DNA of 32,001 nucleotides from a virus: positions 1-32,001 of the IMG/VR virus record IMGVR_UViG_3300043464_001836; one strand, written 5' to 3'. Made by a program: the position numbers and the translations under genes. Positions within the stretch are counted from its first letter, which is position 1, and the number at the start of each line of letters is the position of its first letter. Below the pieces are notes generated by a model. It saw only the letters and a program-made list of their open reading frames with translations. It was not told where the DNA came from and did not search any database. Positions 11,348-30,886 of the stretch are shown here, one piece after another.

Positions 11348-13153
11348 ATGGCCATCAGAAACCTATTCCCTGGAATCAAACCGTCGCTGAATCTGGATTT
11401 TGCCAATACAAAACAGCTTGATCCTCGTATCACATTTGCCCGCGCCACTCCGGGCAATTACTATGACGGCAAGACGTTTGCGAAAGCAGAAGAAAACCTA
11501 CTCTCCTATTCTCAAGATTTTGCTAACGCATCTTGGGGCAAAGAATCCATCTCTATAGTAGGTGACAGCGCCGTCGCGCCGGATGGGACAAGCACGGCAG
11601 ACTCCATGGTGGAGAGTTCGGCGTCGTTCTGGCACAGAGCAAGCAAACCAATAGGAAGCAGTGGCTCGTTTGTTTTAAGCGTTTACGCCAAACCATTGGC
11701 TGGCTCAAGATATTTGACCCTTGGCGCAGCGGTTAATGGAGGTGACCATGCGAGCGCAACATTTGACTTATCTGCGCTAACCAGCACGACCTATAACGGT
11801 GGTTCAACACTATCCATATCGGCAGCAGCAGTAACTACCGTAGGGTCTTGGCTCCGCTGTTCAATTACTTTTTCTAGTTCAGCAACCATAGAGTCGGCTT
11901 ATATAGGTTTGAATAATGCCTCGTCGTTTAGTGTTGGCTCTAGGGGATTTAACACATATACAGGTGACGGCACATCTGGACTCTACGTGTGGGGCGCCCA
12001 ACTTGAGCAACGCTCCAGTGTCACAGCCTACACCCCAACTACATCGCAGCCCATCACCAATTACATCCCAGTGTTGATGACTGCACCAGCCGGTGTGGCA
12101 CGGTTTGATCACAACCCAGTTACGGGTGAGAGCCTGGGGCTATTGATCGAGGAGCAGCGCGTTAATCTTCTGACGTATTCGGAGCAGTTCGATAATGTGG
12201 CGTGGACCGCTACCAATTGTTCGGTTGCCGCAAATGCAATCGTAGCCCCTGACGGGGCGCTTACAGCCGATAAAGTGAAAGCATCGGCTGGAACAAATCA
12301 GAAAAGCATTAACAGAAACGGATCACAGGTAACTGCCACTATCGGAACCACGTATACATACAGTGTTTATCTGAAAGCGGCAGAGCAAACGAGCGTGGTG
12401 CTTTACTTTCAAAATGCGGCATCTTCGGGGTATGTGACATTTAACCTAAGTGCCGGCACTGCTAGTGCAGGTGGCAGCATCACCTCGGTTGGTAATGGTT
12501 GGTACAGGTGCTCAATATCAGGGGTTGCAACAACTGCAAGCGTTTACCCCCTGATGTACTTCTCGCTCGCCAGTATTACAGGCGACGGCTACTCAGGCTT
12601 TTATACATGGGGCGCTCAACTCGAAGCCGGAGCATTCGCCACCAGCTACATCAAAACCGAAGCAAGCCAGGTAACTAGGAGTGCCGATGACGCCAAGATG
12701 ACCGGGACTAACTTCAGTAGTTGGTATAGTCAGGATGCCGGTACCTTCTTCGGTCACTACTCACACGCGTCTACTACAACTAACTATCCTGTCTGCCTAG
12801 ATGTTACCTCTGGTTCATTTCATAATGAAATTACTCTCTATGGGGAAGCCGCTATTGGCGAGCAGTTCTTTGTTCGCTCTCTGAATGTTACGCAGGCAAA
12901 TATCACTGCGTCATCTAAGTTCGCATCAGGTGTATTCGGTAAGATTGCGGGCGCATATAGCACAAACGCAATGGCGGCGGCAGCCAATGGGGCGGCTGCC
13001 GTCTCGGATGCACTTGGAACAGTTCCGCAGGTTGACAGGATGCACATAGGCCAAGGTTACGAAAATGTTTACCAGCTAAATGGTACTATCAAGCGCATTG
13101 CGTATTACCCTGAGCGCCTTACTAACGAGCAGTTGCAGGCACTTACTTATTAA
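11348..13153 (+). CDS. Tail fibre/adhesin with carbohydrate-binding-like and LamG-like domains (copy 1)
   Basis: A 601-aa protein starting with an N-terminal tag (FPGIKPSLNLDFANTKQLDP) seen in many phage receptor-binding proteins. Two tandem carbohydrate-binding-like modules follow, at about residues 45-225 and 270-440. Each has an N-L-L-x-Y-S-x-x-F-x-x-x-x-W opening, a TAD(K/S) segment, a GW(Y/L)RCS(I) strand and a closing Y-x-W-G-A-Q-L-E. The last ~140 residues look like a concanavalin/LamG-type domain ending in GTIKRIAYYPERLTNEQLQAL. The protein is likely virion-associated and sugar-binding (inference). The gene is clearly more GC-rich than its neighbours and shares a 138-bp near-identical stretch with the next gene, marking it as an imported, duplicated module. 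GGAG precedes ATG 11348. Confidence 0.75.
   Translation: MAIRNLFPGIKPSLNLDFANTKQLDPRITFARATPGNYYDGKTFAKAEENLLSYSQDFANASWGKESISIVGDSAVAPDGTSTADSMVESSASFWHRASKPIGSSGSFVLSVYAKPLAGSRYLTLGAAVNGGDHASATFDLSALTSTTYNGGSTLSISAAAVTTVGSWLRCSITFSSSATIESAYIGLNNASSFSVGSRGFNTYTGDGTSGLYVWGAQLEQRSSVTAYTPTTSQPITNYIPVLMTAPAGVARFDHNPVTGESLGLLIEEQRVNLLTYSEQFDNVAWTATNCSVAANAIVAPDGALTADKVKASAGTNQKSINRNGSQVTATIGTTYTYSVYLKAAEQTSVVLYFQNAASSGYVTFNLSAGTASAGGSITSVGNGWYRCSISGVATTASVYPLMYFSLASITGDGYSGFYTWGAQLEAGAFATSYIKTEASQVTRSADDAKMTGTNFSSWYSQDAGTFFGHYSHASTTTNYPVCLDVTSGSFHNEITLYGEAAIGEQFFVRSLNVTQANITASSKFASGVFGKIAGAYSTNAMAAAANGAAAVSDALGTVPQVDRMHIGQGYENVYQLNGTIKRIAYYPERLTNEQLQALTY
12001..12138 (+). repeat. 138-bp near-identical direct repeat, copy A
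   Basis: This segment starts at acttgagcaacgctccag and ends at gagagcctggg. It encodes the linker between the two carbohydrate-binding-like modules of the first paralogue. It aligns without gaps to 13829-13966 at a constant offset of 1,828 bp, with only scattered third-position differences. The flanking module sequences are far more divergent, so this stretch is a likely crossover point between the two fibre genes. Confidence 0.9.
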
Positions 13154-13163
13154 GGAATAAATA

Positions 13164-15008
13164 ATGATTAAAACTAATTTTCCAACCATTAAGCCAACAC
13201 TGAATCTTGACTTCGCAGGTACTAAGCAATTAGACCCCCGTATCGAGTTCACACGTGCTACTGCGGCCACTTGCTACAACGGCAAGACGTTTGCGAAAGC
13301 GGAAGAGAACCTACTGTTATATTCGCAAGAGTTTGATAACATTTACTGGACAAAAGCAAATAGCTCTGTCACTACAAATACAGTAGTGGCACCGGACGGA
13401 GCAGCAACTGCTGATACAGTCCTTGAGACTGCTGTATCAAGTAGGCACGGCATTGAGAGACTGAACATTATTGTGCCTAGTGCTGATCATGTGTTGAGTG
13501 TTTACGTAAAAGCAGCCGGAAGGACTTTTGTTACCCTGGCGCTTAACCCCCAAGCCAGTACGTCTGTTTGGGGGGCGGCAATTTTTGATCTTTCTACAGG
13601 AATAGTTGCATCAACTAACGCCACATCTGGAATAGCCGCCTCTGCCTATATTGTTAACGCGGGGAATGGATGGTATCGCTGTATCTTAAATTGCAATTTG
13701 GGTACCACAACCAGTGCCTACGCGTTTGTAACTACCGCGACAGACGGCACCACGTACAGCGTAGATTTTCGTGGTACTCAGGTTTTGGTCGGTGACATTA
13801 CAAAAGGAATTTACGCATGGGGAGCTCAACTTGAGCAACGCTCCAGTGTCACAGCCTACACCCCAACTACGTCGCAACCCATCACCAACTATCTCCCGGT
13901 GTTGATGACTGCACCAGCCGGCGTGGCACGGTTTGACCACAACCCAGTTACGGGTGAGAGCCTGGGATTACTGGTAGAGGGGCCGAGCACAAATCTGCTG
14001 ACGTACTCTGAGGAATTTAGCAATACGGCATGGAGTAAAGATGCCGTACTTACAGCAGATAACGTAGTCGTATCTCCCGACGGCTTACTGCATGGCTGTA
14101 AGATCGTACCAACCACTACTAATACTAGTCACCGTGTTTACCAATCTCAGAGTGTGTCTGGGTCCTCCGGTGTACACACAGTCTATGTGAAGTCTGCGGG
14201 TTACAATAAGATAGCTATACGGGATGCACATACTACTGGGCTTTATACCGCTTTCGATTTAAGCCAAGGTACTCCTATAGCTGGGGGCACAGCATCAACC
14301 CCCTATATTACCTCAGTAGGTAACGGATGGTATAGGTGTTCGATTGTAATTGTAGGTGCCCCAACTCAGGCTATAAGCATACAAGTATTACCTAACTCGT
14401 ACACCACAGGTTCAGTAGTTGACGCCTGGGCAGGCGATGGCTACTCTGGCATTTACATCTGGGGTGCACAACTAGAAGCTGGAGCATTCACCACCAGCTA
14501 TATCAAAACCGGAGCATCGCAAGTGACAAGAAGTATCGACGACGCAAAGATGACAGGTGCCAATTTTAGCAGCTGGTATCGTCAGGATGCCGGCACTTTC
14601 TTTGCAAATGTAAATGGGTCTTCGCTAGGCAATAGGTTTGTCTATTCGGTAGACAACGGTACCAGCACATCCGGCAACAACTATATGCACAGTGCTTTTG
14701 AGACAAACAAACACTTTAACGTGGTGAGTTCTGGTAACACGGTTGCACAGCTTGACGCTGGAACCTGCACGGCAAATGCCTTCGCAAAGTTTGCTTGTGC
14801 CTACACGGTAAATGACTTTGCGGCATCGCTAAATGGTGGCTCTATGGCATCTGATCCATCCGGGAATTTGCCTATTGGACTATCCAGGCTACTAATCGGA
14901 AACGCTTATGATTACGCGCCACAAAACAACATAAATGGCACAATCAAGCGTCTGGCCTACTACCCTGCACGTCTCACAAACGCACAATTGCAAGCATTAA
15001 CGGAGTAA
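13164..15008 (+). CDS. Tail fibre/adhesin with carbohydrate-binding-like and LamG-like domains (copy 2)
   Basis: A 614-aa paralogue of the preceding gene with the same layout: N-terminal tag (FPTIKPTLNLDFAGTKQLDP), two carbohydrate-binding-like modules (about residues 45-235 and 275-455) and a C-terminal LamG-like region closing with GTIKRLAYYPARLTNAQLQAL. The two proteins are very similar at the tag, the inter-module linker and the start and end of the LamG-like part, but differ inside the modules and in the middle of the LamG-like part, as expected if binding faces diversify while scaffolds recombine. AAGGA precedes ATG 13164. Composition is mixed: parts around 14100-14450 look like the AT-rich phage background, others are GC-rich. 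Function as a second receptor-binding protein is inferred. Confidence 0.72.
   Translation: MIKTNFPTIKPTLNLDFAGTKQLDPRIEFTRATAATCYNGKTFAKAEENLLLYSQEFDNIYWTKANSSVTTNTVVAPDGAATADTVLETAVSSRHGIERLNIIVPSADHVLSVYVKAAGRTFVTLALNPQASTSVWGAAIFDLSTGIVASTNATSGIAASAYIVNAGNGWYRCILNCNLGTTTSAYAFVTTATDGTTYSVDFRGTQVLVGDITKGIYAWGAQLEQRSSVTAYTPTTSQPITNYLPVLMTAPAGVARFDHNPVTGESLGLLVEGPSTNLLTYSEEFSNTAWSKDAVLTADNVVVSPDGLLHGCKIVPTTTNTSHRVYQSQSVSGSSGVHTVYVKSAGYNKIAIRDAHTTGLYTAFDLSQGTPIAGGTASTPYITSVGNGWYRCSIVIVGAPTQAISIQVLPNSYTTGSVVDAWAGDGYSGIYIWGAQLEAGAFTTSYIKTGASQVTRSIDDAKMTGANFSSWYRQDAGTFFANVNGSSLGNRFVYSVDNGTSTSGNNYMHSAFETNKHFNVVSSGNTVAQLDAGTCTANAFAKFACAYTVNDFAASLNGGSMASDPSGNLPIGLSRLLIGNAYDYAPQNNINGTIKRLAYYPARLTNAQLQALTE
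13829..13966 (+). repeat. 138-bp near-identical direct repeat, copy B
   Basis: Second copy of the linker repeat, inside the second fibre paralogue. Recombination between the two copies would delete 1,828 bp and leave one in-frame chimeric fibre gene, because the offset fuses equivalent positions of the two proteins. Confidence 0.9.
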
Positions 15009-16977: not shown

Positions 16978-17212
16978 TTTATGTGTTCTGCTAGGTGGTT
17001 GCTGCGCTCCAATGCCTAAGCCTCCTAAGTTTGATAGTTATTTAACTACTGAGTGTGCTACTCTGCAGGATACTAGTGGATTTAAATCGTTTGAGGCAGT
17101 ACTGGAACAGAAAGCTAAAGATGTACTAGTACTAGCAGAGTGTGCTAAAAAACAAAAGAGCTTAGCAGAAGCTGTTAAGCGATATGAGGTAGAGTTCAAT
17201 GCAACTAAGTAA
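16955..17212 (+). CDS. o-spanin (Rz1-like lipoprotein)
   Basis: An 85-aa protein with a signal peptide and lipobox: MQLLSVISLCVLLGGC places the lipidated Cys at position 16. Mature residues begin CAPMPKPPKF, a Pro-rich start usual for Rz1-type spanins, followed by a helical segment with LAECAKKQKSLAEAVKRYE. It begins 23 bp inside the i-spanin gene in a different frame. It would be anchored in the outer membrane and pair with the upstream TM protein to disrupt the outer membrane. It overlaps the endolysin start by 14 bp. Confidence 0.8.
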   Translation: MQLLSVISLCVLLGGCCAPMPKPPKFDSYLTTECATLQDTSGFKSFEAVLEQKAKDVLVLAECAKKQKSLAEAVKRYEVEFNATK

Positions 17213-17651
17213 GAATTTTAGCTTAAAAGAGCTAACTAGAAGTGATGTAGCTACTAGGAAAGGACTTACCAATATTCCTAATTCTAGCGCTACTATTAAC
17301 CTAGAGGTACTAGCCATTTCTGTTCTACAACCAATACGTGATAAGTTTGGCTCAGTTAAAGTACTAAGTGGTTATAGAAGTCCTGAAGTAAACAGAGAAG
17401 TAGGAGGTTCTAAGACTTCCGACCACATGGAAGGTTCCGCTGCTGATATTGAAGTTCCTGGTGTTTCTAACTATGAAGTAGCTAAATGGATCAGAGATAA
17501 TCTAGACTTTCGCCAGCTAATTCTAGAGTTCTACACTCCTGGAGACCCTAACTCAGGTTGGGTACACGTTTCACACGGTACTAAGAAGCAGGTACTAACG
17601 GCAGTAAAAGAGAAAGGTGCTACAGTCTATAAAGTTGGACTAGTAGCATAA
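17199..17651 (+). CDS. Endolysin, peptidase M15 family
   Basis: A 150-aa zinc peptidase that would cleave peptide bonds in peptidoglycan. The conserved metal-binding motifs are present: SDHMEGSAADIE (His and Asp ligands; SxHxxGxAxD pattern) and WVHVSH (third His). Upstream is the usual LSGYRSPEVNREVGG segment of the M15_3-type family. The length fits short single-domain endolysins such as that of T5 (137 aa, an L-alanyl-D-glutamate peptidase). There is no signal peptide, so it would need a holin to reach the wall. GAGGTAGAG precedes ATG 17199. It is the last gene of the rightward block and is followed at once by the terminator. Confidence 0.9.
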   Translation: MQLSKNFSLKELTRSDVATRKGLTNIPNSSATINLEVLAISVLQPIRDKFGSVKVLSGYRSPEVNREVGGSKTSDHMEGSAADIEVPGVSNYEVAKWIRDNLDFRQLILEFYTPGDPNSGWVHVSHGTKKQVLTAVKEKGATVYKVGLVA

Positions 17652-17654
17652 AAG

Positions 17655-17691
17655 AAAAGCCCCTAACGGATTCCTCTGTTAGGGGCTTTTT
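17655..17691. terminator. Bidirectional Rho-independent terminator
   Basis: AAAAGCCCCTAAC (17655-17667) pairs perfectly with GTTAGGGGCTTTT (17678-17690) around a 10-nt loop. On the + strand the stem is followed by T residues just after the endolysin stop. On the - strand the reverse complement ends in TTTTCTTTT. It therefore can stop both the rightward late transcript and the leftward early transcript, which converge here. Confidence 0.92.
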
Positions 17692-17762
17692 CAATTTGGT
17701 TCGGTTTTCAATTTGGTTCGGTTTTCAATTTGGTTCGGTTTTAAATTTGGTTCGGTTTTCAA
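17690..17762. repeat. Four tandem 17-bp repeats in the convergent gap
   Basis: The unit TTCAATTTGGTTCGGTT occurs four times head to tail at exact 17-bp period (17690-17757), followed by the first five bases of a fifth copy. The only internal difference is C to A at position 3 of the fourth unit. The array abuts the terminator and is followed by an inverted repeat. It could be an iteron-type protein-binding or replication-origin array, or a feature of the 3' end of the leftward transcript; the sequence does not decide which. Confidence 0.95.
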
Positions 17763-17786
17763 CTTAGCACCTGGTACGTGCTAAGT
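17762..17786. repeat. 9-bp inverted repeat next to the tandem array
   Basis: ACTTAGCAC and GTGCTAAGT form a perfect 9-bp stem around the 7-nt loop CTGGTAC. Neither strand has a T-run after it, so it is not a simple terminator. CCTGGTA recurs at about 17805-17811 and TTAGCAC at 17821. It could be an operator or origin element, or an RNA processing hairpin. Confidence 0.8.
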
Positions 17787-17820: not shown

Positions 17821-18078
17821 TTAGCACTTCCGAAAGCTTATAGTCACATTTCCATCTATCTCTTTTTGTAGCACACTATACTCTGGCACTAACTTACCTG
17901 GGTCTAGTAACTCAAAGAAGGGTGAAATGGCTACGTACTCTATCATGTCACTATAGTATATAGTTTCACCTCTAACTATAATACACATACCCATAATAGT
18001 CATAGCCACGTCTGGGTTACTCTCCACAAAGGCTCTAGATAGTGCAAATTTTCCAACTCTTTTAGTAATATCACTCAT
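17821..18078 (-). CDS. Hypothetical protein, last gene of the leftward block
   Basis: An 85-aa protein with AAGGA 6 nt before ATG. No family is recognised. It is mixed alpha/beta in look, with AMTIMGMCIIVRGETIYYSDMIEYV in the middle and a C-terminal Cys (SFRKC). There is no signal peptide or convincing TM helix. It lies 9 bp downstream of the CWC-like gene and just ahead of the repeat array and terminator, so it should be co-transcribed with the replication genes. Confidence 0.65.
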   Translation of the reverse strand: MSDITKRVGKFALSRAFVESNPDVAMTIMGMCIIVRGETIYYSDMIEYVAISPFFELLDPGKLVPEYSVLQKEIDGNVTISFRKC

Positions 18079-18087
18079 TATTATTCC

Positions 18088-18318
18088 TTAGTAAATAAAT
18101 TCTCTATGCTTTAGAGTTTCTAGGTAGACTACATCCTCTTGATTAAGCCCTGGCTGCCTTAGCATTTCAGTAGGACTCATACACGTCTGCGTAACTTTTG
18201 GCACTGGTAAGATAAAGGTAACCTTGGCGCACCAGCAATTGTTACTACCAGTGCAGTATAGGGGTTTAGGCTTTACCTGGAGAGGCCGAAGCCTCTCCAA
18301 TGCTTGTGGGTTACACAT
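18088..18318 (-). CDS. Small Cys-rich protein, CWC-like
   Basis: A 76-aa protein with YCTGSNNCWCAKV, where three Cys lie in a C-x6-C-W-C pattern, followed ~20 residues later by TCMSPTEML. This recalls the cysteine-rich CWC family (C..N.CWC...LP...C), small proteins of unknown function, probably metal-binding. The N-terminal part LERLRPLQVKPKPL is basic. The start is in a TAATG overlap with the reductase stop, which suggests translational coupling to that gene. A redox or metal role next to a thiol-dependent reductase is possible but only inferred from position. Confidence 0.65.
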   Translation of the reverse strand: MCNPQALERLRPLQVKPKPLYCTGSNNCWCAKVTFILPVPKVTQTCMSPTEMLRQPGLNQEDVVYLETLKHREFIY

Positions 18319-20357
18319 TACCTAATTGGGCAAACTCCACCGGAGCAGCCCTCCTCTAATAGCTCCTCATGAGAGTTACTACTATCTAGGTTAATATCTA
18401 GTAGCTTAGCAGTATACTCTAGGTATTCAGCTTCGGTAACTACCTCTTGTGGTAGATATGGGTAACCAAGGTCCTTAGCAGTTTTAGATGGATCATTACG
18501 CTTTAGAAAGCTAACTGCTACATAAGAATCCCAGTTGCTGTATAACCAGTCAGTAATATCTTCTAGCTCATTCTCATCATAGCTAATAGTACAACTAACA
18601 TTCTGGTCGCAGTAGTTATCCATAAGCATCTTGTATCTATTTAGCTGGTCTACAGCAGACTCTAGGTTAACTTCCTTACCATCGACTACATCGAACTTTA
18701 CATCCTCATAGGATATTGGTAAAGTAACTAGCATCGCTGTAGTATCATAAGGATGTGCAAAGACTCTATAGTTAGCTTTACGTAGAATATCGATTAGTGG
18801 ATCATGAATACTAAAGGCTACGTTATTAAAGATATACTTTCCTAGAGGTTTGTGCATACCTTCAGTAGAGTCGTAACACTTACTCTGAGTACCTTCAGGT
18901 TTGATAGTAGAAATGTTCTTCGGATATGGCAGGTCTAGTTCCTCAGCCATACTATAAGCCGCGGATGTTTGGTGTCTACGTAGAGTACGGTATTCATACG
19001 CACCCATATCAGGACGTTTAGCAACACCCATTAAGCTAACACCACATAGTCTTAGGTGATCAGAATTAAGTGACCAGCTTTCTTGTAGAATACCGTCCCT
19101 AAAGTCAACACACGTTTGACGGTAATTTGCTCTAGAGATAATTCTAGCCGCGTCATGTAACTCGTGGTTACTACCTTTGAACTTTCCAAGGTCAATGGAG
19201 ACTAGGTTACAGGTTCCACCCTTACTAGGAAGTAGGATCTCTGCGCAAGGGTTCATCAGGGTTGCCCACGGGGCCCGGCGTTTAAGTTCTACACCGTTAA
19301 TCAGTCCAGGCTCACCCTTACCACCGCGGTGCATCATCCATAGTAGGCTAGATAATTCCTTCTTGGAAGGCTTAGAGTCAAATAGGATAGAGTTATTACT
19401 CTGCGTTCTATGCTCAAGACCAGTTTCGCTACCATCGTTGCTAAAGATATGTGACTTAGCTCTAGCAAATAGTTCCCACTCAGGACTAGAGTAATCCATA
19501 ATAGCTATCTGCGCAGACCTACGAGTAGATAGTACAGTTCCTAGAAGGTTTACTACGTCTAGAATATCAATAGATGATAGTAGGGAATCTGCTCGCTTAT
19601 TCATTATGTCTACAATTTTCTTGTAGGACTTCATAAGACCCGTAGACCCTTGACTTAGCCACCCATAGTTTCTAAGTCTTTTTCCACCACCACGAATCTC
19701 TGAGAAGTCAATAATAAGTTCCTTAGCGTTATACTTACCTGCTAGAATCTTGCCTACTGACTTTGCCCAGGCAATAGCGCTATCACCAACTCTGATATAC
19801 CAAATGCCATCTTCCATGTACTCTTCATTAAACTCAGTACCCTTCTCATCCGCTGTTCTAGTGGAAGGGATAAACGTTACCTTAGGAATAACTTTTCTAA
19901 AGCCGGTTAAGGTACCAGGTACTGGTCGAAAACCCATACCAGAGCCATTAAGAAGACCCCAGAATATATCTACTATGTCGTGCACGGTCTGGGCGTTTAT
20001 GGCAGCGCAGTTAAATTGACTCATAGCTATGGTCTTGGCAATATTAGTACCACCGAGCCATAAAGTACGTCCAGCTACAGCTACTTTCCTCTCTAGAAGA
20101 AGTTCACGTAACTGCGCTAGTTCCTCAAGCTGACTATCTACTAAGCATACCCATTCCTGCATATCCTCAGTAATATCATTTAGAGGCATATCAGGCCAGC
20201 TCTTCTGTGTTAGTGCGCGTTCCCAAAGCCATTTTTGATGAGCGATAACTCTATCTACAGTTTGCTCCCACGTCTCAAACTCTGTACCCGCCTCATTTAG
20301 GGGCCTGTTGTACGTTCTACGTGTAATAATTTGAGCTCTAGTGGAAGGAACGAACAT
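18318..20357 (-). CDS. nrdJ: Ribonucleotide reductase, class II, monomeric adenosylcobalamin-dependent
   Basis: A 679-aa enzyme of the RTPR type (Lactobacillus leichmannii enzyme, 739 aa), which reduces ribonucleoside triphosphates with a radical from coenzyme B12. Key residues are present: NPCAE with the thiyl Cys371 and Glu373, the active-site disulfide pair Cys117 (SQFNC) and Cys383 (GGTC), and a C-terminal CSGGVC (Cys671/Cys676) that shuttles electrons from thioredoxin. Other landmarks are GSGMGFRPVPG and STIKPEGTQSK. The gene is intact, with no insertion. It follows the dUTPase in a TAATG overlap. It would supply dNTPs without oxygen or a separate radical subunit but depends on host B12 (family knowledge). 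Confidence 0.93.
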   Translation of the reverse strand: MFVPSTRAQIITRRTYNRPLNEAGTEFETWEQTVDRVIAHQKWLWERALTQKSWPDMPLNDITEDMQEWVCLVDSQLEELAQLRELLLERKVAVAGRTLWLGGTNIAKTIAMSQFNCAAINAQTVHDIVDIFWGLLNGSGMGFRPVPGTLTGFRKVIPKVTFIPSTRTADEKGTEFNEEYMEDGIWYIRVGDSAIAWAKSVGKILAGKYNAKELIIDFSEIRGGGKRLRNYGWLSQGSTGLMKSYKKIVDIMNKRADSLLSSIDILDVVNLLGTVLSTRRSAQIAIMDYSSPEWELFARAKSHIFSNDGSETGLEHRTQSNNSILFDSKPSKKELSSLLWMMHRGGKGEPGLINGVELKRRAPWATLMNPCAEILLPSKGGTCNLVSIDLGKFKGSNHELHDAARIISRANYRQTCVDFRDGILQESWSLNSDHLRLCGVSLMGVAKRPDMGAYEYRTLRRHQTSAAYSMAEELDLPYPKNISTIKPEGTQSKCYDSTEGMHKPLGKYIFNNVAFSIHDPLIDILRKANYRVFAHPYDTTAMLVTLPISYEDVKFDVVDGKEVNLESAVDQLNRYKMLMDNYCDQNVSCTISYDENELEDITDWLYSNWDSYVAVSFLKRNDPSKTAKDLGYPYLPQEVVTEAEYLEYTAKLLDINLDSSNSHEELLEEGCSGGVCPIR

Positions 20358-24837: not shown

Positions 24838-25750
24838 CTGCTTCCTTTAATACCTTATCTACGTTAGGAACCTTCAACACGTTCTCTAAGTAAATCCTTA
24901 GCTCCTCCTGTACAGGTAGGTTTCTCAAGTCTAGACTGGCTTTATGCTCACGTAGAACTAACTTCTTGTCTAGAAGTTCTGTGTTCTTAACCGTAGCTAA
25001 TTGTCCTACGTCACCCTCCACTTCAAATATTGTGTGATGGTAGCTAGTTGGAACCATTTCGGCTGCAGAGCCGACGGTTTTTCTGATTAGCTGTGGTAGG
25101 TCCAGTTCGTAGAAGTCCCATTCTAGTAAATCAGAATCTAGAATAACTACACCACTAGTAACTTCACTTCTGTGAAAGCTAGTAGTTACTGGAGACCCTG
25201 GGTACACAATATTACGCTGGCTATTACTATGAGAGTGTAAGTCCCCTGCTAGTACTAGAGGCCATCGGTCTAGTAAACTCAGGTCAATCTCTGGCTTTAC
25301 ATGTGGAGGAATCTCTCCACGCACGTGAGTAAATAAAATATTCCCCGTAAACTCTGGCCAGGACTCTCGAAGTTTATTATACGGAATAAAGTCCATATTA
25401 TCAATAGTCAGGAAGTCATCAATAATCCTAATATTACCGTTACTAGCAGATAACGTTACTAGTGATAAGTTACTTAGGAATGTTGTATTTTTCTTAACAG
25501 CTTCGTGGTTACCGGGGTAAATAATAGTACGAATATCTTTGAAAATCTCAAGCATTTCAAAGTATAGGCCTAGCTCAACCATAGAAGGTACTTTATCAAA
25601 TACGTCACCACCTAATACTAGAAGGTCACAGTTCTGCATCAAGTCTTTTATACTATGAAAAAGGCTTCTATACCTATTTAGTTGCCACTCTACAGGTACA
25701 TTCTTCTGGCCTAGCTTTATATGTAAGTCAGCTGTAAATAGTACTTTCAT
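24815..25750 (-). CDS. sbcD: SbcD/Mre11-like nuclease subunit (T4 gp47 / T5 D12-like)
   Basis: A 311-aa metallophosphoesterase with the full ligand set: LFTADLHIK (DxH), VLGGDVFDK (GD), IYPGNHEA (GNHE), LFTHVRGE (H) and LAGDLHSHS (GDxHxH). It is the nuclease of the SbcCD/Mre11-Rad50-like complex formed with the following gene. Its ATG overlaps the stop of the homing endonuclease gene in ATGA. The same nine bases at that joint recur at the other end of the endonuclease gene, so this gene was probably once coupled straight to the 63-aa gene upstream. Confidence 0.93.
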   Translation of the reverse strand: MKVLFTADLHIKLGQKNVPVEWQLNRYRSLFHSIKDLMQNCDLLVLGGDVFDKVPSMVELGLYFEMLEIFKDIRTIIYPGNHEAVKKNTTFLSNLSLVTLSASNGNIRIIDDFLTIDNMDFIPYNKLRESWPEFTGNILFTHVRGEIPPHVKPEIDLSLLDRWPLVLAGDLHSHSNSQRNIVYPGSPVTTSFHRSEVTSGVVILDSDLLEWDFYELDLPQLIRKTVGSAAEMVPTSYHHTIFEVEGDVGQLATVKNTELLDKKLVLREHKASLDLRNLPVQEELRIYLENVLKVPNVDKVLKEADDYIKDA

Positions 25751-25755
25751 TTGTT
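25747..25755 (-). repeat. 9-bp direct repeat at the SbcD-side joint of the homing endonuclease gene
   Basis: On the - strand AACAAATGA forms the endonuclease stop (TGA) and the SbcD-like start (ATG). The same nine bases occur at 27147-27155, exactly 1,400 bp away, at the other end of the endonuclease gene. Confidence 0.85.
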
Positions 25756-27150
25756 ATCCTCTAAAACCCAGGCGGAGTTACCACAGTCAAAAACTCTATG
25801 ATATCCTCTATGTTGCATAATTTCGACCTCAGTACTATTAATATCGTAACCTTGTTGTACTAACAGATGCTTCTGACATTGGTGTCTAGAGAGGGAGTCT
25901 AATCCTTTATAGTACCTATAACTAGGGTCTGTAAAATGACTAAATCTAAAGCCTAGTTTCATATATAAGTTACCTGTGCTCCACCTACGATCTGCATAGC
26001 TAATAATAGTTCCTATATTACTTTTAGTAAAAGCTCTAAGTAATTTAGATGCCCCACCAATAACAGTACTGCCCAATATACTACAATAGCGTAATAGTTC
26101 ATAATTATAGACACTATTAAATCGTGGCGTACCGAACGTCATAATAGCAACTAAGCGACTATCCAAGTACAACCCGTACCGATACTTAGACACGCACGTT
26201 CCCTGAATATGATTAGCTACTAGAAATAATGAGGCGTCATCTGGACTTACTTGTCTAATTACGCATTTTCTAGCAGCTATCTTTACTGAAGTACCTACTA
26301 AAGACTCTAGCCTAGACTTTACAATATGTTGCTTATGTATCCACTCATCCTCATTTATATGAATTAACCTATATCCAAAATTTTCCACTCCTATAGTTTT
26401 ATTTAGGTGGTAATTTCTACCTACTAGAGCCTCCCGATGCCAATAGGTTCCGTTAAACTCAATAGCTATACCTAAGTCTGGCAATAAAATATCCAGCTCT
26501 TTACCACCTAGAATAGACCTATCATTTAATTCTACCCAGCCAGGATATACTGATTGAATAAACTTTGTTAGCTCTTCTTCACTATTACTACGTAGCTTAT
26601 TCTTTGCACATACGGGGCAGCCAGATAGATTACCAATCGTATTATTAGGTGTAGCTTCCCACAGATTACCACAAACAGTACACTTATGTACTAAAGGTAA
26701 CTGTCTACCTTTATATTCCCCTATAACCTCAATATTTCTATCTCCTAGTTCCATTATATATTCAGCTGTAGTTTTCAAAGCTCTATTAGAGCAAAATTTA
26801 CATTTATGGCCTTGAATAACACTCTGAGGTCTTACTTCATGTGTACTGCCACAGTCTAGGCACTCATGTAGTATATTGGTTAGGTTATTTATGTATGTAC
26901 CTACACGTCTATATCTAGTCTGTTTTATCTTCTCATCGTATATTTCATTAGTCCACGTAGCTTTTTTGGCTCTACAGGTAGGACAGGTAGTAGATTTTAA
27001 TACTGTTTTGGGGGCTCTTAAGTATATATTACCACAACCTAAGCATTCATGCTCTATTGGGATTAGTGCAGTTTTATACTCTCCTATACGACGATAAGTG
27101 CTACCCTTAGCCAGTAGCTTCTTATCGTACTCTGCATTACTTGAAGTCAT
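25747..27150 (-). CDS. Free-standing EDxHD (Vsr-like) homing endonuclease with three zinc ribbons
   Basis: A 467-aa protein. Three CxxC...CxxC zinc ribbons open it: Cys36/39-56/59, 97/100-117/120 and 157/160-178/181. The catalytic region is of the Vsr-like EDxHD type known from I-Bth0305I: KELDILLPD (Asp220), AIEFNGTYWHRE (Glu231, His238) and LIHINEDEW. The C-terminal ~170 residues (GLYLDSRLVAIMTFG, ISYADRRWSTGNLY) match a module often seen in phage homing endonucleases. It would cut an endonuclease-free allele and spread by repair. It sits between the 63-aa gene and the SbcD-like gene, flanked by a 9-bp direct repeat, without disturbing either frame. Confidence 0.85.
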   Translation of the reverse strand: MTSSNAEYDKKLLAKGSTYRRIGEYKTALIPIEHECLGCGNIYLRAPKTVLKSTTCPTCRAKKATWTNEIYDEKIKQTRYRRVGTYINNLTNILHECLDCGSTHEVRPQSVIQGHKCKFCSNRALKTTAEYIMELGDRNIEVIGEYKGRQLPLVHKCTVCGNLWEATPNNTIGNLSGCPVCAKNKLRSNSEEELTKFIQSVYPGWVELNDRSILGGKELDILLPDLGIAIEFNGTYWHREALVGRNYHLNKTIGVENFGYRLIHINEDEWIHKQHIVKSRLESLVGTSVKIAARKCVIRQVSPDDASLFLVANHIQGTCVSKYRYGLYLDSRLVAIMTFGTPRFNSVYNYELLRYCSILGSTVIGGASKLLRAFTKSNIGTIISYADRRWSTGNLYMKLGFRFSHFTDPSYRYYKGLDSLSRHQCQKHLLVQQGYDINSTEVEIMQHRGYHRVFDCGNSAWVLEDNK

Positions 27151-27155
27151 TTGTT
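27147..27155 (-). repeat. 9-bp direct repeat at the upstream joint of the homing endonuclease gene
   Basis: On the - strand AACAAATGA contains the stop of the 63-aa gene and the start of the endonuclease gene. It matches 25747-25755. The pair may be the footprint of the insertion event or of selection to keep the ATGA coupling. Confidence 0.85.
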
Positions 27156-27338
27156 GTATGAAGTAAGTCTATCCGCTCTAATCTTATTTATAACTTCGAT
27201 TAGATAGTTGGTGAACATTTCACCTGCATTAGTACCAGGAGGAGTTTTAGGAACGTCTCCATTATCTAAAACAGAGTTCCACTGGTTGAAAGCCTCTATT
27301 AGCTCTCTATACGTAAAAATAATCTGTGTATCTAGCAT
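27147..27338 (-). CDS. Small hypothetical protein
   Basis: A 63-aa protein starting at ATG 27338, which has CTGGAG 5 nt upstream. An earlier in-frame ATG at 27365 would lie inside the hairpin after the SSB gene and is less likely. No family is recognised. The sequence is helical and charged (TYRELIEAFNQWNSVL, GEMFTNYLIEVINKIRADRL) with no TM segment. It sits between the ssDNA-binding protein and the homing endonuclease gene, coupled to the latter by ATGA. Confidence 0.6.
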   Translation of the reverse strand: MLDTQIIFTYRELIEAFNQWNSVLDNGDVPKTPPGTNAGEMFTNYLIEVINKIRADRLTSYNK

Positions 27339-27353
27339 GTAGTCTCCAGGCAA

Positions 27354-27378
27354 TAATAGCCCCATAAAGGGGCTATTA
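27354..27378. terminator. Hairpin directly after the SSB gene
   Basis: TAATAGCCCC and GGGGCTATTA form a perfect 10-bp stem around the 5-nt loop ATAAA. It lies 5 bp after the SSB stop on the - strand. The run after it on that strand is TTGCC rather than a true T-tract, so it is probably a weak terminator or a 3'-end mRNA stabiliser that raises SSB output over the downstream genes. It also partly covers an alternative start of the next gene. Confidence 0.65.
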
Positions 27379-27383
27379 GCTTC

Positions 27384-28031
27384 TTAGTAAGGAATATCGT
27401 CTACTTCTTCAGTAGCGATTGCAGCGGTTACTTCAGCAGGAGCCGGAGCATTGGAACTATCTAGGCTATCTAGGAAGTCCTTCTGTTCTTCCGGAGTTAG
27501 TCGAGGTACTAGCTCGTCGATAGGCTTTGCATTAGCAATTAGTTCACGTTCTTCTTCACTTAAGGAACGCTGCTTGCAGCGTAAAACGCTCAGCGTGTAT
27601 TCTACGTTATACGCTAAAGGCCCATTTTTAGCACGTTTGAACACAATGTCCCAACCAGTATCTGGATCGGTAGGATCACCTAGGTCTTCAGCCGCAGAAA
27701 GAATCTGGTCAAACAGTTTCTTTTTAAGGTTAATCACTACAGGCTTTTTATCTGCCACTGAGTAACCTTGAACTACGTATGCCCAGCCACACTTAAGCTC
27801 AGGGAAGCGCTCGCGAACGTAGTCTTTTTCTTTGTTAGTAAATTTCTCTTTGTCTCGGTCAAAAGCTAGACATTCCATAGGAATTTGTTTGTCTTGCTTT
27901 GCCTTAACCCAGTAAACGTAGCGTGGAATAACGTCACCGAAGATTCGGATTACGTTCTCTCCATCTTTGTACGTGTAGCTTTCGGCGCCTTTCTGTGCGG
28001 TTCCTTTGGTGTCTTTGAATTTTAGAGCCAT
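27384..28031 (-). CDS. Single-stranded DNA-binding protein (gp32-like)
   Basis: A 215-aa protein that fits phage gp32-type ssDNA-binding proteins. It has a basic N-terminus (MALKFKDTKGTAQKG), a central OB-fold-like region (NVIRIFGDVIPRYVYWVK through VVINLKKKLFDQIL, then DPTDPDTGWDIVFKR) and an acidic, Pro/Ala-rich tail ending EEVDDIPY, which resembles the protein-interaction tip of SSBs. The Cys/His zinc motif of T4 gp32 is not evident. It would coat ssDNA at the fork and recruit replication partners. GAGGA lies about 10 nt before ATG 28031, which overlaps the upstream gene by 10 bp. A perfect hairpin follows its stop. Confidence 0.75.
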   Translation of the reverse strand: MALKFKDTKGTAQKGAESYTYKDGENVIRIFGDVIPRYVYWVKAKQDKQIPMECLAFDRDKEKFTNKEKDYVRERFPELKCGWAYVVQGYSVADKKPVVINLKKKLFDQILSAAEDLGDPTDPDTGWDIVFKRAKNGPLAYNVEYTLSVLRCKQRSLSEEERELIANAKPIDELVPRLTPEEQKDFLDSLDSSNAPAPAEVTAAIATEEVDDIPY

Positions 28032-28381
28032 GATGAGTTTTCCTCGTATTTGAAATGAATGTAATTGTCAGTGATTTGCAATAGTCTATTTTTGGAGATT
28101 TTAACTTTATCGACAGTGTGACTCATAGGTAACCATAAGCCAGCATTGCCTTGATAAGCGTAATCGAAATAGTTTCTAATCGCAGCTAAAAGTATGTAGT
28201 CAAACTTTTCTGCATCGTAAAACTTACTAGCAGCTAAGTCGTGTACATTAAGTATAAAGCTGTTTCCAGCTAAGTTGGAAGGTACTCCAGTGCGAGAAAA
28301 ATCCGTAACTGTTTTAAGTACAGCGTATGAATCGTACTTACACTTGCGGCATACCTTTTGCCAGTCAAAGAAGATTGTCAT
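28022..28381 (-). CDS. Hypothetical protein between helicase and SSB
   Basis: A 119-aa protein starting at ATG 28381; a TTG four codons upstream is possible but has no better ribosome site. No family is recognised. It has CRKCKY (CxxC) near residue 12-15 without an obvious second pair, and aromatic-rich segments (FDYILLAAIRNYFDYAYQ). There is no signal peptide. A perfect TATAAT lies just upstream. Its place in the replication operon suggests a replication accessory role, but nothing in the sequence shows the function. Confidence 0.65.
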   Translation of the reverse strand: MTIFFDWQKVCRKCKYDSYAVLKTVTDFSRTGVPSNLAGNSFILNVHDLAASKFYDAEKFDYILLAAIRNYFDYAYQGNAGLWLPMSHTVDKVKISKNRLLQITDNYIHFKYEENSSWL

Positions 28382-28405
28382 ATAGTTTCCCAACCGACAA
28401 GTAAT

Positions 28406-28411
28406 ATTATA
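28406..28411 (-). promoter_or_regulatory. Possible -10 promoter element
   Basis: A perfect TATAAT on the - strand falls in the 55-bp gap between the helicase stop and ATG 28381. No good -35 hexamer is found 16-18 nt upstream (AAGATT at best), and the TGn extension is off by one base. It may boost the downstream unknown gene and SSB. The AT-rich background makes a chance match possible. Confidence 0.3.
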
Positions 28412-28436: not shown

Positions 28437-30833
28437 TTATTTTTTCAAAACCCTTACCTGATAACCGGACTTTAAGTAATGGCCTAGTCTAACAGCAGAC
28501 TGACCCTTAACTGTAGAGCCTTTCAATGAGATATCTAGGATAAGTGGTTGCTTTTTACCGGGTACTTCTCTAATAATTCGTCCAATCAGCTGTGTTAGCA
28601 TAGGCTCATTATTAGTGGGCGTTGCTAGAATTAGACAGCTTAAATCATTTTGAGAAATTCCTTCTGAGAAGATAGACATAGTACCAAAAATAACGTCTAG
28701 CTCTCCTGTACCAATCTTGTTCAGGATACTAGTTCTTTCCTTAATGTCCTTTACTTGACCAGTAATACTAGCTGCTCTAGGTACTTGTTCGGCCGCCCAT
28801 ACTAGAAATTCAACTCTAGAGGCAACTACTAGTACTTTATACCCTTTTGACGCCGCACTAGTGGCTAAGTCTACTATTAATCGCCTATATTCTGGTAGTT
28901 CGTTTTCTAGTTCAGTAATCTTATTAGCCCAATGTTTACCGCCCGGAAAGCGTATATCTGTCTCCACAACAACTACCTGTGGAGTCATACAGTTTTCCTT
29001 GTCTGGCTTTAGAACATGGAATCCAAAGTAGTCATTAAATAGCACATGCTTCATGTCCTTTCTAGTAAGAGTACCAGAGAGTCCAATCTTATAGCGTGCT
29101 TTAGACTTATCTAAGATAGAACTGAATGTGGAAGCAGAGACGTGGTGACAGTTTGATACTAGTACCCCGTTGGCAAAGTATGTATGAGTATCCTCTACCT
29201 CTATATTGAACCTATTGCCGTACATTAAAGTACTAGGCTCAATTGATATAATAGGTCTAGTATAGTAAGGTTTTATATGTTCCTTTATAAGGTCGAAGTG
29301 TTCCTCGAATGGTACATCTGCTAGCATCGGTAGTAAACTACCTAGCTTATACCGCATACAGGGATGTATATACTTAGCTATACTATGTAAAAACTTTCTA
29401 GAGTTATTTGCGTTTAGGTTCAGATAATTAAACCCTCTATTACACGTATATATATAGTACTCGTCTACAAGGTTTAAGTTAATTAAAGAATGTCCCAAGT
29501 TATGTATAGACTCCTCATCCAGTTCACAGAAGCTAAAGGTAACATTGCTTGTAGTACAAGATCCATCATCTTGAAAAATAAGAGACCAGGCTAGCACATC
29601 TAGTTTATTAGCTAGGTCTGCTGGAACTAGTTTTTTGTGTCCACTTACATATAGCTTATCATATAAGCTAAAGGAGTCCTCAAATGACTTAGTCTGTAAG
29701 CTGTATACCTTATTTTCTACTTTATATCCAGAGTGCCCCTCTACAAGAGTAACCTCATTAGAAATTATAGAGGTAATTAGTCTTTCTTTGTAAAGAAGAT
29801 AGTCTAGTTGCGCTTCACCATTAGTAAAGCGAAGGCGAACACTATTATTAGCTTTATTAGCTATAGATAGGTTACCGTCTCCCAGTAAAATACCTAGAAT
29901 TATGGGCAATGAAGACTCTTTTAATGCTAGCCTAGATTTATGCCTATTATTTGTTAGTATTAAATTATCTCCAACTGATAAGTCCTCTGCTTTTACTTTA
30001 CTTATTATTCCATCTTTGCTTTCTATAAAGAAAGAGTGATTATAGGTAGCTTTTATACTGCCTACACTGTGCTTTATTTTAAGACAAGACTCCTCCTTAT
30101 TCTTAAAGAATCTAAGTACTTTTTTATACACCTCTTGATTTGTTACTAAGTCGAAAGACCTTACATGTACAGGTAGTTCCTGGTTTACAATAGTACCTAT
30201 AGACATAGGTCCGTGCTCTAAGGTGTCCACTTGACTGGTGTAGTCTAAACACTCATCTAGTACAATAGTACCAAAAGCATCTGACAAGTCAGGCATACGC
30301 TTAGTAATCGTCTGTACATTACCTACAACGATTATAGGTCTTATATTAAACTTGCCAGTACCGATAATGCCCGCTTCAATACCAAAAATCTTGTCGATTT
30401 CTTCAATCCATTGGTCGCGCAGCATGGTAGTATGTGTTACGATAAGCGTCTTCTGTCCTAGCTTAGCAGCTATAGCTAGTGCTGTGAATGTCTTACCATA
30501 GCTTACAGGAGCATTGAGCATACATGAGTCATTTATCTGGTCGTATACTTCCTGCTGTGAAGGCCTTAATGTACCTCCAAACCTAGGAAACTGCACAGGC
30601 TTGAGAACTCGCTTATCAATAATCTCATAGTCGCTAGCTACTAAATCCATACGACCAGAAGGAATCGAGCATACGTTATCAGATACTCTAGAAAAGTTAT
30701 TAATAGTCTCAGACCGTGTGGTTACCCCTGTCTTCCTAGTTATAACGTACTTTAGCGCTCCCTTAATCTGGTCTAGTTCATCAGGTGTAGACTTCTCTAA
30801 GTATATTCTATTGCTTAGTACTGCCTTTCTCAT
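28437..30833 (-). CDS. Superfamily 2 DNA helicase (T5 D10 / UvsW-like) interrupted by an intein
   Basis: The frame from ATG 30833 encodes 798 aa, of which 367 are an intein, leaving a ~431-aa helicase. Helicase motifs are Walker A APVSYGKT, motif II LDE|CHH (split by the intein), motif III LSGTLTRKD, and motif VI QLIGRIIREVPGK. This type unwinds or branch-migrates recombination and replication intermediates. A GTG five codons upstream (30848) is possible, but ATG 30833 overlaps the stop of an 18-codon frame in ATGA. Without splicing, the ATPase motif II is broken, so activity depends on intein removal (inference from the position). The neighbour upstream in transcription order is the unknown gene behind the polymerase. 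Confidence 0.9.
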   Translation of the reverse strand: MRKAVLSNRIYLEKSTPDELDQIKGALKYVITRKTGVTTRSETINNFSRVSDNVCSIPSGRMDLVASDYEIIDKRVLKPVQFPRFGGTLRPSQQEVYDQINDSCMLNAPVSYGKTFTALAIAAKLGQKTLIVTHTTMLRDQWIEEIDKIFGIEAGIIGTGKFNIRPIIVVGNVQTITKRMPDLSDAFGTIVLDECLDYTSQVDTLEHGPMSIGTIVNQELPVHVRSFDLVTNQEVYKKVLRFFKNKEESCLKIKHSVGSIKATYNHSFFIESKDGIISKVKAEDLSVGDNLILTNNRHKSRLALKESSLPIILGILLGDGNLSIANKANNSVRLRFTNGEAQLDYLLYKERLITSIISNEVTLVEGHSGYKVENKVYSLQTKSFEDSFSLYDKLYVSGHKKLVPADLANKLDVLAWSLIFQDDGSCTTSNVTFSFCELDEESIHNLGHSLINLNLVDEYYIYTCNRGFNYLNLNANNSRKFLHSIAKYIHPCMRYKLGSLLPMLADVPFEEHFDLIKEHIKPYYTRPIISIEPSTLMYGNRFNIEVEDTHTYFANGVLVSNCHHVSASTFSSILDKSKARYKIGLSGTLTRKDMKHVLFNDYFGFHVLKPDKENCMTPQVVVVETDIRFPGGKHWANKITELENELPEYRRLIVDLATSAASKGYKVLVVASRVEFLVWAAEQVPRAASITGQVKDIKERTSILNKIGTGELDVIFGTMSIFSEGISQNDLSCLILATPTNNEPMLTQLIGRIIREVPGKKQPLILDISLKGSTVKGQSAVRLGHYLKSGYQVRVLKK
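29151..30251 (-). mobile_element. Intein with LAGLIDADG endonuclease in the helicase DExH motif
   Basis: A 367-aa intein from Cys1 (CLDYTSQVDT, just after ...IVLDE) to Asn367 (YFANGVLVSN), followed by the extein Cys of CHHV. Splicing restores IVLDECHHVS, a normal motif II. Block B-like TYNHSFFIES holds the usual T-x-x-H. Two LAGLIDADG motifs, LPIILGILLGDGN and LAWSLIFQDDGS, mark a homing endonuclease domain. The end is GVLVSN|C, so the penultimate residue is Ser rather than the usual His, although the preceding block F (FNIEVEDTHTYFANGVLV) is canonical. Such variants are known to splice in some inteins. Confidence 0.9.
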
Positions 30834-30886
30834 ATAAAGTATACCCACGTTGATGCTAGTACCAGAACAAATGCTATGACAACCAT
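30830..30886 (-). CDS. Tiny hydrophobic frame ahead of the helicase (candidate)
   Basis: An 18-codon frame, MVVIAFVLVLASTWVYFI, that is one hydrophobic helix and ends in an ATGA overlap with the helicase start. No ribosome site lies near its ATG; an AGGAG further upstream (after a stop in this frame) is ~24 nt away and spaced better for an ATA or ATT codon. It may be a small membrane peptide, a translational-coupling leader, or chance. Confidence 0.3.
   Translation of the reverse strand: MVVIAFVLVLASTWVYFI

Follow-up and report, generated by a model that had tools for sequence, protein, structure and literature searches.

The 17-bp tandem array at positions 17690–17757 of the window (the whole stretch of DNA analysed, 32,001 bases long and corresponding to bases 1–32001 of a 114,128-base virus record) is real, and its placement is improved by a terminator, a second site in the genome and a set of related phages. 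We suggest, tentatively, that it could well be a lineage-specific and dispensable cis-acting element, composed of tandem asymmetric sites for a putative sequence-specific factor, that modulates transcript borders. The early-to-late transcription switch of T5-like phages has been described as unknown (PMC7472727). An array at the early/late terminator and in the ligase leader, present in some phages and absent from similar ones, offers natural pairs for tests of border control; if it is neutral, the array illustrates clearly how intergenic repeats turn over in phages.

A tandem array at the early/late junction

The 17-letter unit TTCAATTTGGTTCGGTT occurs four times with an exact 17-bp period, always on the + strand, the copies at 17690, 17707 and 17724 being exact and the copy at 17741 carrying one mismatch. 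Numbered along the early (−) strand, the mismatched copy 1 (17741–17757) is followed by copies 2 (17724–17740), 3 (17707–17723) and 4 (17690–17706), the last of which adjoins the terminator described below. On this strand a 14-bp core, AAAACCGAACCAAA, is identical in 7/7 copies of the genome, and the flanks differ. With up to three mismatches allowed, 0.03 matches to the unit are expected by chance per window, and 0/100 shuffles of the sequence gave four. TRF scored the array at 143 (period 17, 4.4 copies, 96% matches) and all remaining arrays in the window at 60 or less. The unit search, shuffles and TRF together bear out the four near-perfect direct repeats of strict period given in the preliminary description. 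Since a period of 17 bp disrupts the reading frame, the array is unlikely to be coding. We also considered a Rho utilisation (rut) site and rejected it, as the C-over-G excess is not exceptional (it is matched by 10% and 27% of coding windows).

The array lies in a gap of 169 nt between the endolysin gene, ending at 17651 on the + strand, and an 85-aa ORF, ending at 17821 on the − strand, and these gene ends confirm the convergent layout. As originally described, this is the sole sizeable truly non-coding gap of the window; the genome has larger gaps elsewhere. The endolysin (peptidase M15 family, 17199–17651, + strand) is the last late-direction gene ahead of the gap. Its early-direction counterpart, the 85-aa ORF (17821–18078, − strand), is not found in the sister phages G001, G002 and G004, and a search for its relatives returned a single match, in a near-identical contig. 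Next to it are a 76-aa ORF (18088–18318, − strand), kept beside the ribonucleotide reductase (RNR) gene in sister phages at 41–44% identity, and the RNR gene itself (18318–20357, − strand), near the 3′ end of the early block.

Immediately after the endolysin gene, a G+C-rich hairpin of 17 pairs (17654–17691) is followed by a T-run on the + strand, as in an intrinsic terminator, with a shorter T-run on the − strand. This terminator, which is absent from the preliminary description, is predicted to be strong and, because T-runs are present on both strands, bidirectional; it overlaps the first repeat by 2 bases, and its hairpin is predicted to fold on the opposite strand as well. Beyond the other end of the array, on its 5′ side when read along the early (−) strand, the reported palindromic stem was recovered as an inverted repeat at 17762–17786, ACTTAGCAC-CTGGTAC-GTGCTAAGT, with a 9-bp stem and a 7-nt loop. 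The structure z-score of the region is strong, but this is due to the terminator and the 9-bp hairpin and not to the repeats.

A second array in front of ligA

Three more copies of the unit are found outside the window, at genome positions 40821, 40838 and 40875 (array 40821–40891), in the same orientation and ~23 kb from the first array. They sit in a 92-nt gap that runs from a PC4-family gene to the split ligase gene ligA, with the final copy extending into the ligA Shine-Dalgarno sequence AAGGA. This third copy keeps the core, and its spacing has decayed. The 114-kb genome thus has seven copies in total, confined to two untranslated gaps and sharing one orientation, and elsewhere in it the best match to the unit is 13/17 or lower. 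The whole-genome search proposed in the preliminary description therefore adds one site, and the scatter over many gene ends that it had envisaged was not seen.

A conserved composite of hairpin plus repeats at both sites was considered and is weakened, as the hairpin at the ligA site arises for the most part from duplication of a palindromic ACTAGT stretch, ACTAGTTAAAA. No sigma70 promoter −35/−10 hexamers were found in either array, and the ligA leader has no sigma70-like site; neighbouring gaps do have such hexamers, including T5-type TATAAT promoters.

Distribution among related phages

One near-identical contig, G011/L014, shares all four copies. In a sister species represented by three contigs ~99% or more alike (G002, with L156 and L158), which has 68% DNA identity in shared genes, the array consists of two diverged copies, GTACAAAACCGATTGTA then GTACAAAACCGACCCAAAT, spaced exactly 17 bp apart. 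Both carry the core AAAACCGA, share the orientation of the array described above and are flanked by the last early-strand gene on one side and the terminator on the other. At the same junction no array is present in G001 (91% identical to G002) or G004 (86%), where the stop codon leads nearly straight into the terminator. The comparison of repeat number with sister phages, as originally proposed, thus gives two copies in G002 and none in G001 and G004, and copy number across the arrays is four at the terminator site, three at the ligA site and two in G002.

Ahead of ligA, no array was seen in any ligA relative examined; in the four nearest the place is taken by a small ORF. A scan of IMG/VR (2.9 million viral contigs) for the motif plus a terminator returned two lineages only, always at this junction, and the IMG/VR motif scans gave no occurrence beyond these two. 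When phage and plasmid collections were searched with the array by BLAST, nothing matched even at an E of 10. The sole match in bacterial genomes, in a Patescibacteria MAG, was dismissed as chance (two imperfect copies, no matching context). Searches with endolysin and RNR relatives added no arrays, and the stretches read of two more distant RNR/endolysin loci are free of repeats. Gene presence and absence among the relatives, whose contigs are incomplete, singled out no partner gene. Because the array comes and goes among relatives and the scan matches are confined to two lineages, it is specific to a small clade, in a fixed place and turning over, by two gains or two losses on this tree.

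Two further features of these relatives were observed. At 25279–28406 of G001 the ribonucleotide reductase gene is broken into two parts ~1.2 kb apart, with one in-frame stop, possibly reflecting an intron or insertion, and at 42241–42339 of G002 a 12-bp unit is repeated eight times within a coding frame.

Comparison with T5

The genome organisation is T5-like, with a split NAD ligase, SbcCD-like D12/D13, an exonuclease and a dUTPase. As in T5, a collinear early block (ligA, ligB ... D12, D13, D14, D15, dut) meets opposing late genes at a hairpin terminator. In T5 (AY543070, 81641–81680) an efficient bidirectional rho-independent terminator is annotated between dut/T5.132 and ltf, and the predicted terminator at 17654–17691 is its positional counterpart. 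Unlike in T5, dut is followed here by RNR and small genes, and the junction has the four-copy array and a second hairpin.

A PC4-like gene (T5.115, 46% identity) precedes ligA in both phages. In T5 the stretch ahead of ligA (65284–65358) combines a terminator-like hairpin with an annotated promoter, whereas in the gap here no terminator or sigma70-like promoter was found and three repeat copies are present instead. T5 has no 17-bp repeats at its early/late junction or ahead of ligA.

Possible roles of the arrays

The preliminary description had left a replication origin, a binding array and a 3′-end element as options. Of these, a binding array or 3′-end element is compatible with the present data and favoured, the repeats lying in untranslated early-strand sequence, at two transcript borders and in one orientation; an origin is not supported. 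A binding array is favoured because the positions are fixed, the orientation is constant and the core is conserved, and it would be non-essential because G001 and G004 are without it. From the sequence we infer both factor binding and regulation at the array, most likely regulation of expression at transcript borders. An asymmetric 14-bp site, spaced at 17 bp, would be recognised by a putative phage- or host-encoded factor acting on DNA or on RNA, with one array at each border of the early gene block that runs from ligA to RNR. The four copies at the first site, just ahead of the predicted bidirectional terminator that divides early from late genes, would damp read-through into the opposing late genes. 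The three copies at the second site would damp ligA expression; they lie in the stretch from the PC4-like gene to the ligase start codon, a position that in T5 contains a terminator-like hairpin and a promoter. In a more elaborate scheme, which seems to us decidedly unlikely, the arrays would be operators of a putative regulator marking the early operon at either end in a branch of T5-like phages; this would link ligase expression with termination at the early/late junction and thereby aid the early-to-late switch.

Neutral tandem duplication is a serious rival to a control element, the array then being a functionless neutral or selfish micro-repeat, in which slippage would have expanded a short intergenic sequence that copying or recombination carried from one non-coding gap to another. 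Tandem duplication arises easily by replication slippage, and the shared orientation in three arrays is weak evidence. Presence or absence differs between phages that are 91% identical, copy number varies (4/3/2), many further non-coding tandem repeats exist in the genome, and both sites are themselves variable, the nearest relatives having a small ORF at the ligA site and nothing from stop codon to terminator at the junction. Yet lineages of 68% identity share the AAAACCGA core, the 17-bp period, the location and the orientation; the third ligA-site copy retains its core despite decayed spacing; and two sites are occupied, no more. We consider a functionless repeat unlikely, though by no means negligible. 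Returning to the control element, a sub-case that we rate as rather improbable would place its action at the RNA level, as tandem single-stranded sites for a protein or sRNA in early mRNAs (the 3′UTR at the RNR end and the ligA leader), serving as a translational operator or 3′-end stabiliser. The sense orientation is the same in 3/3 arrays, the last ligA-site copy reaches into the Shine-Dalgarno sequence, and the predicted unpaired fraction of the early-strand RNA is 0.75 and 0.70, the background being 0.43 (maximum 0.67 in 300). However, shuffled arrays of the same composition are equally accessible and, because base composition explains it, the unpaired state is no proof of RNA function. 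It is not obvious that action on RNA would need an exact 17-bp spacing, and a search of Rfam for known structured RNAs gave three matches, none at gathering score.

Plasmid or lambda-type iterons are short asymmetric direct repeats of 17–22 bp with a fixed period, near an inverted repeat. The array resembles them in its tandem asymmetric direct repeats, its period within the ~17–22 bp range and its adjoining inverted repeat, a resemblance only; unlike iterons it is dispensable, occupies two sites, lies at transcript ends and has no initiator gene identified beside it. An iteron-type origin for a phage initiator is very unlikely because the array is labile, is present at two sites 23 kb apart and coincides with the maximum of the cumulative GC skew (minimum near 67 kb), the last a weak argument since skew tracks gene direction genome-wide. 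Loss of the array in relatives, named in the preliminary description as a finding that would weaken the origin idea, is what we observe: relatives 86–91% identical to a carrier lack it, and copy number varies (4/3/2). The skew analysis suggested there likewise speaks against an origin, as a maximum would at face value resemble a terminus, with the same confounding by gene direction, and a region at 84–89 kb is richer in repeats and palindromes. The skew maximum and the asymmetric, singly oriented sites would suit a polar (Ter-like) replication-fork barrier where replication forks and transcription converge. Such a barrier is nevertheless highly improbable, given that the skew tracks gene direction throughout, that the second array is internal to a replichore, that we identified no Tus/RTP-like gene and that relatives are without the array.

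Other features of the genome

Outside the window, genome positions 84418–88686 contain large non-coding gaps with AACTTAT-type tandem repeats, a perfect palindrome with a 26-bp stem (86908–86968) and a perfect-consensus sigma70 promoter (86630). This stretch resembles a T5-like terminal-repeat/first-step-transfer or origin region, and is a better origin candidate than the array. Other non-coding repeats include TTTGAAG, present ~17.6 times at 75822–75945, and an exact 74-bp tandem duplication at 61421–61572.

In the window, a 467-aa HNH/homing-endonuclease-like gene (25747–27150, − strand), inserted in the early block, has no relative found in the three sister contigs, and an intein-like segment that includes a LAGLIDADG domain splits a helicase gene at 28437–30848 (− strand). 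On the + strand, adjacent 601-aa and 614-aa genes at 11348–15008 match the same tail-protein families (phrog_5939), which suggests a duplicated tail gene.
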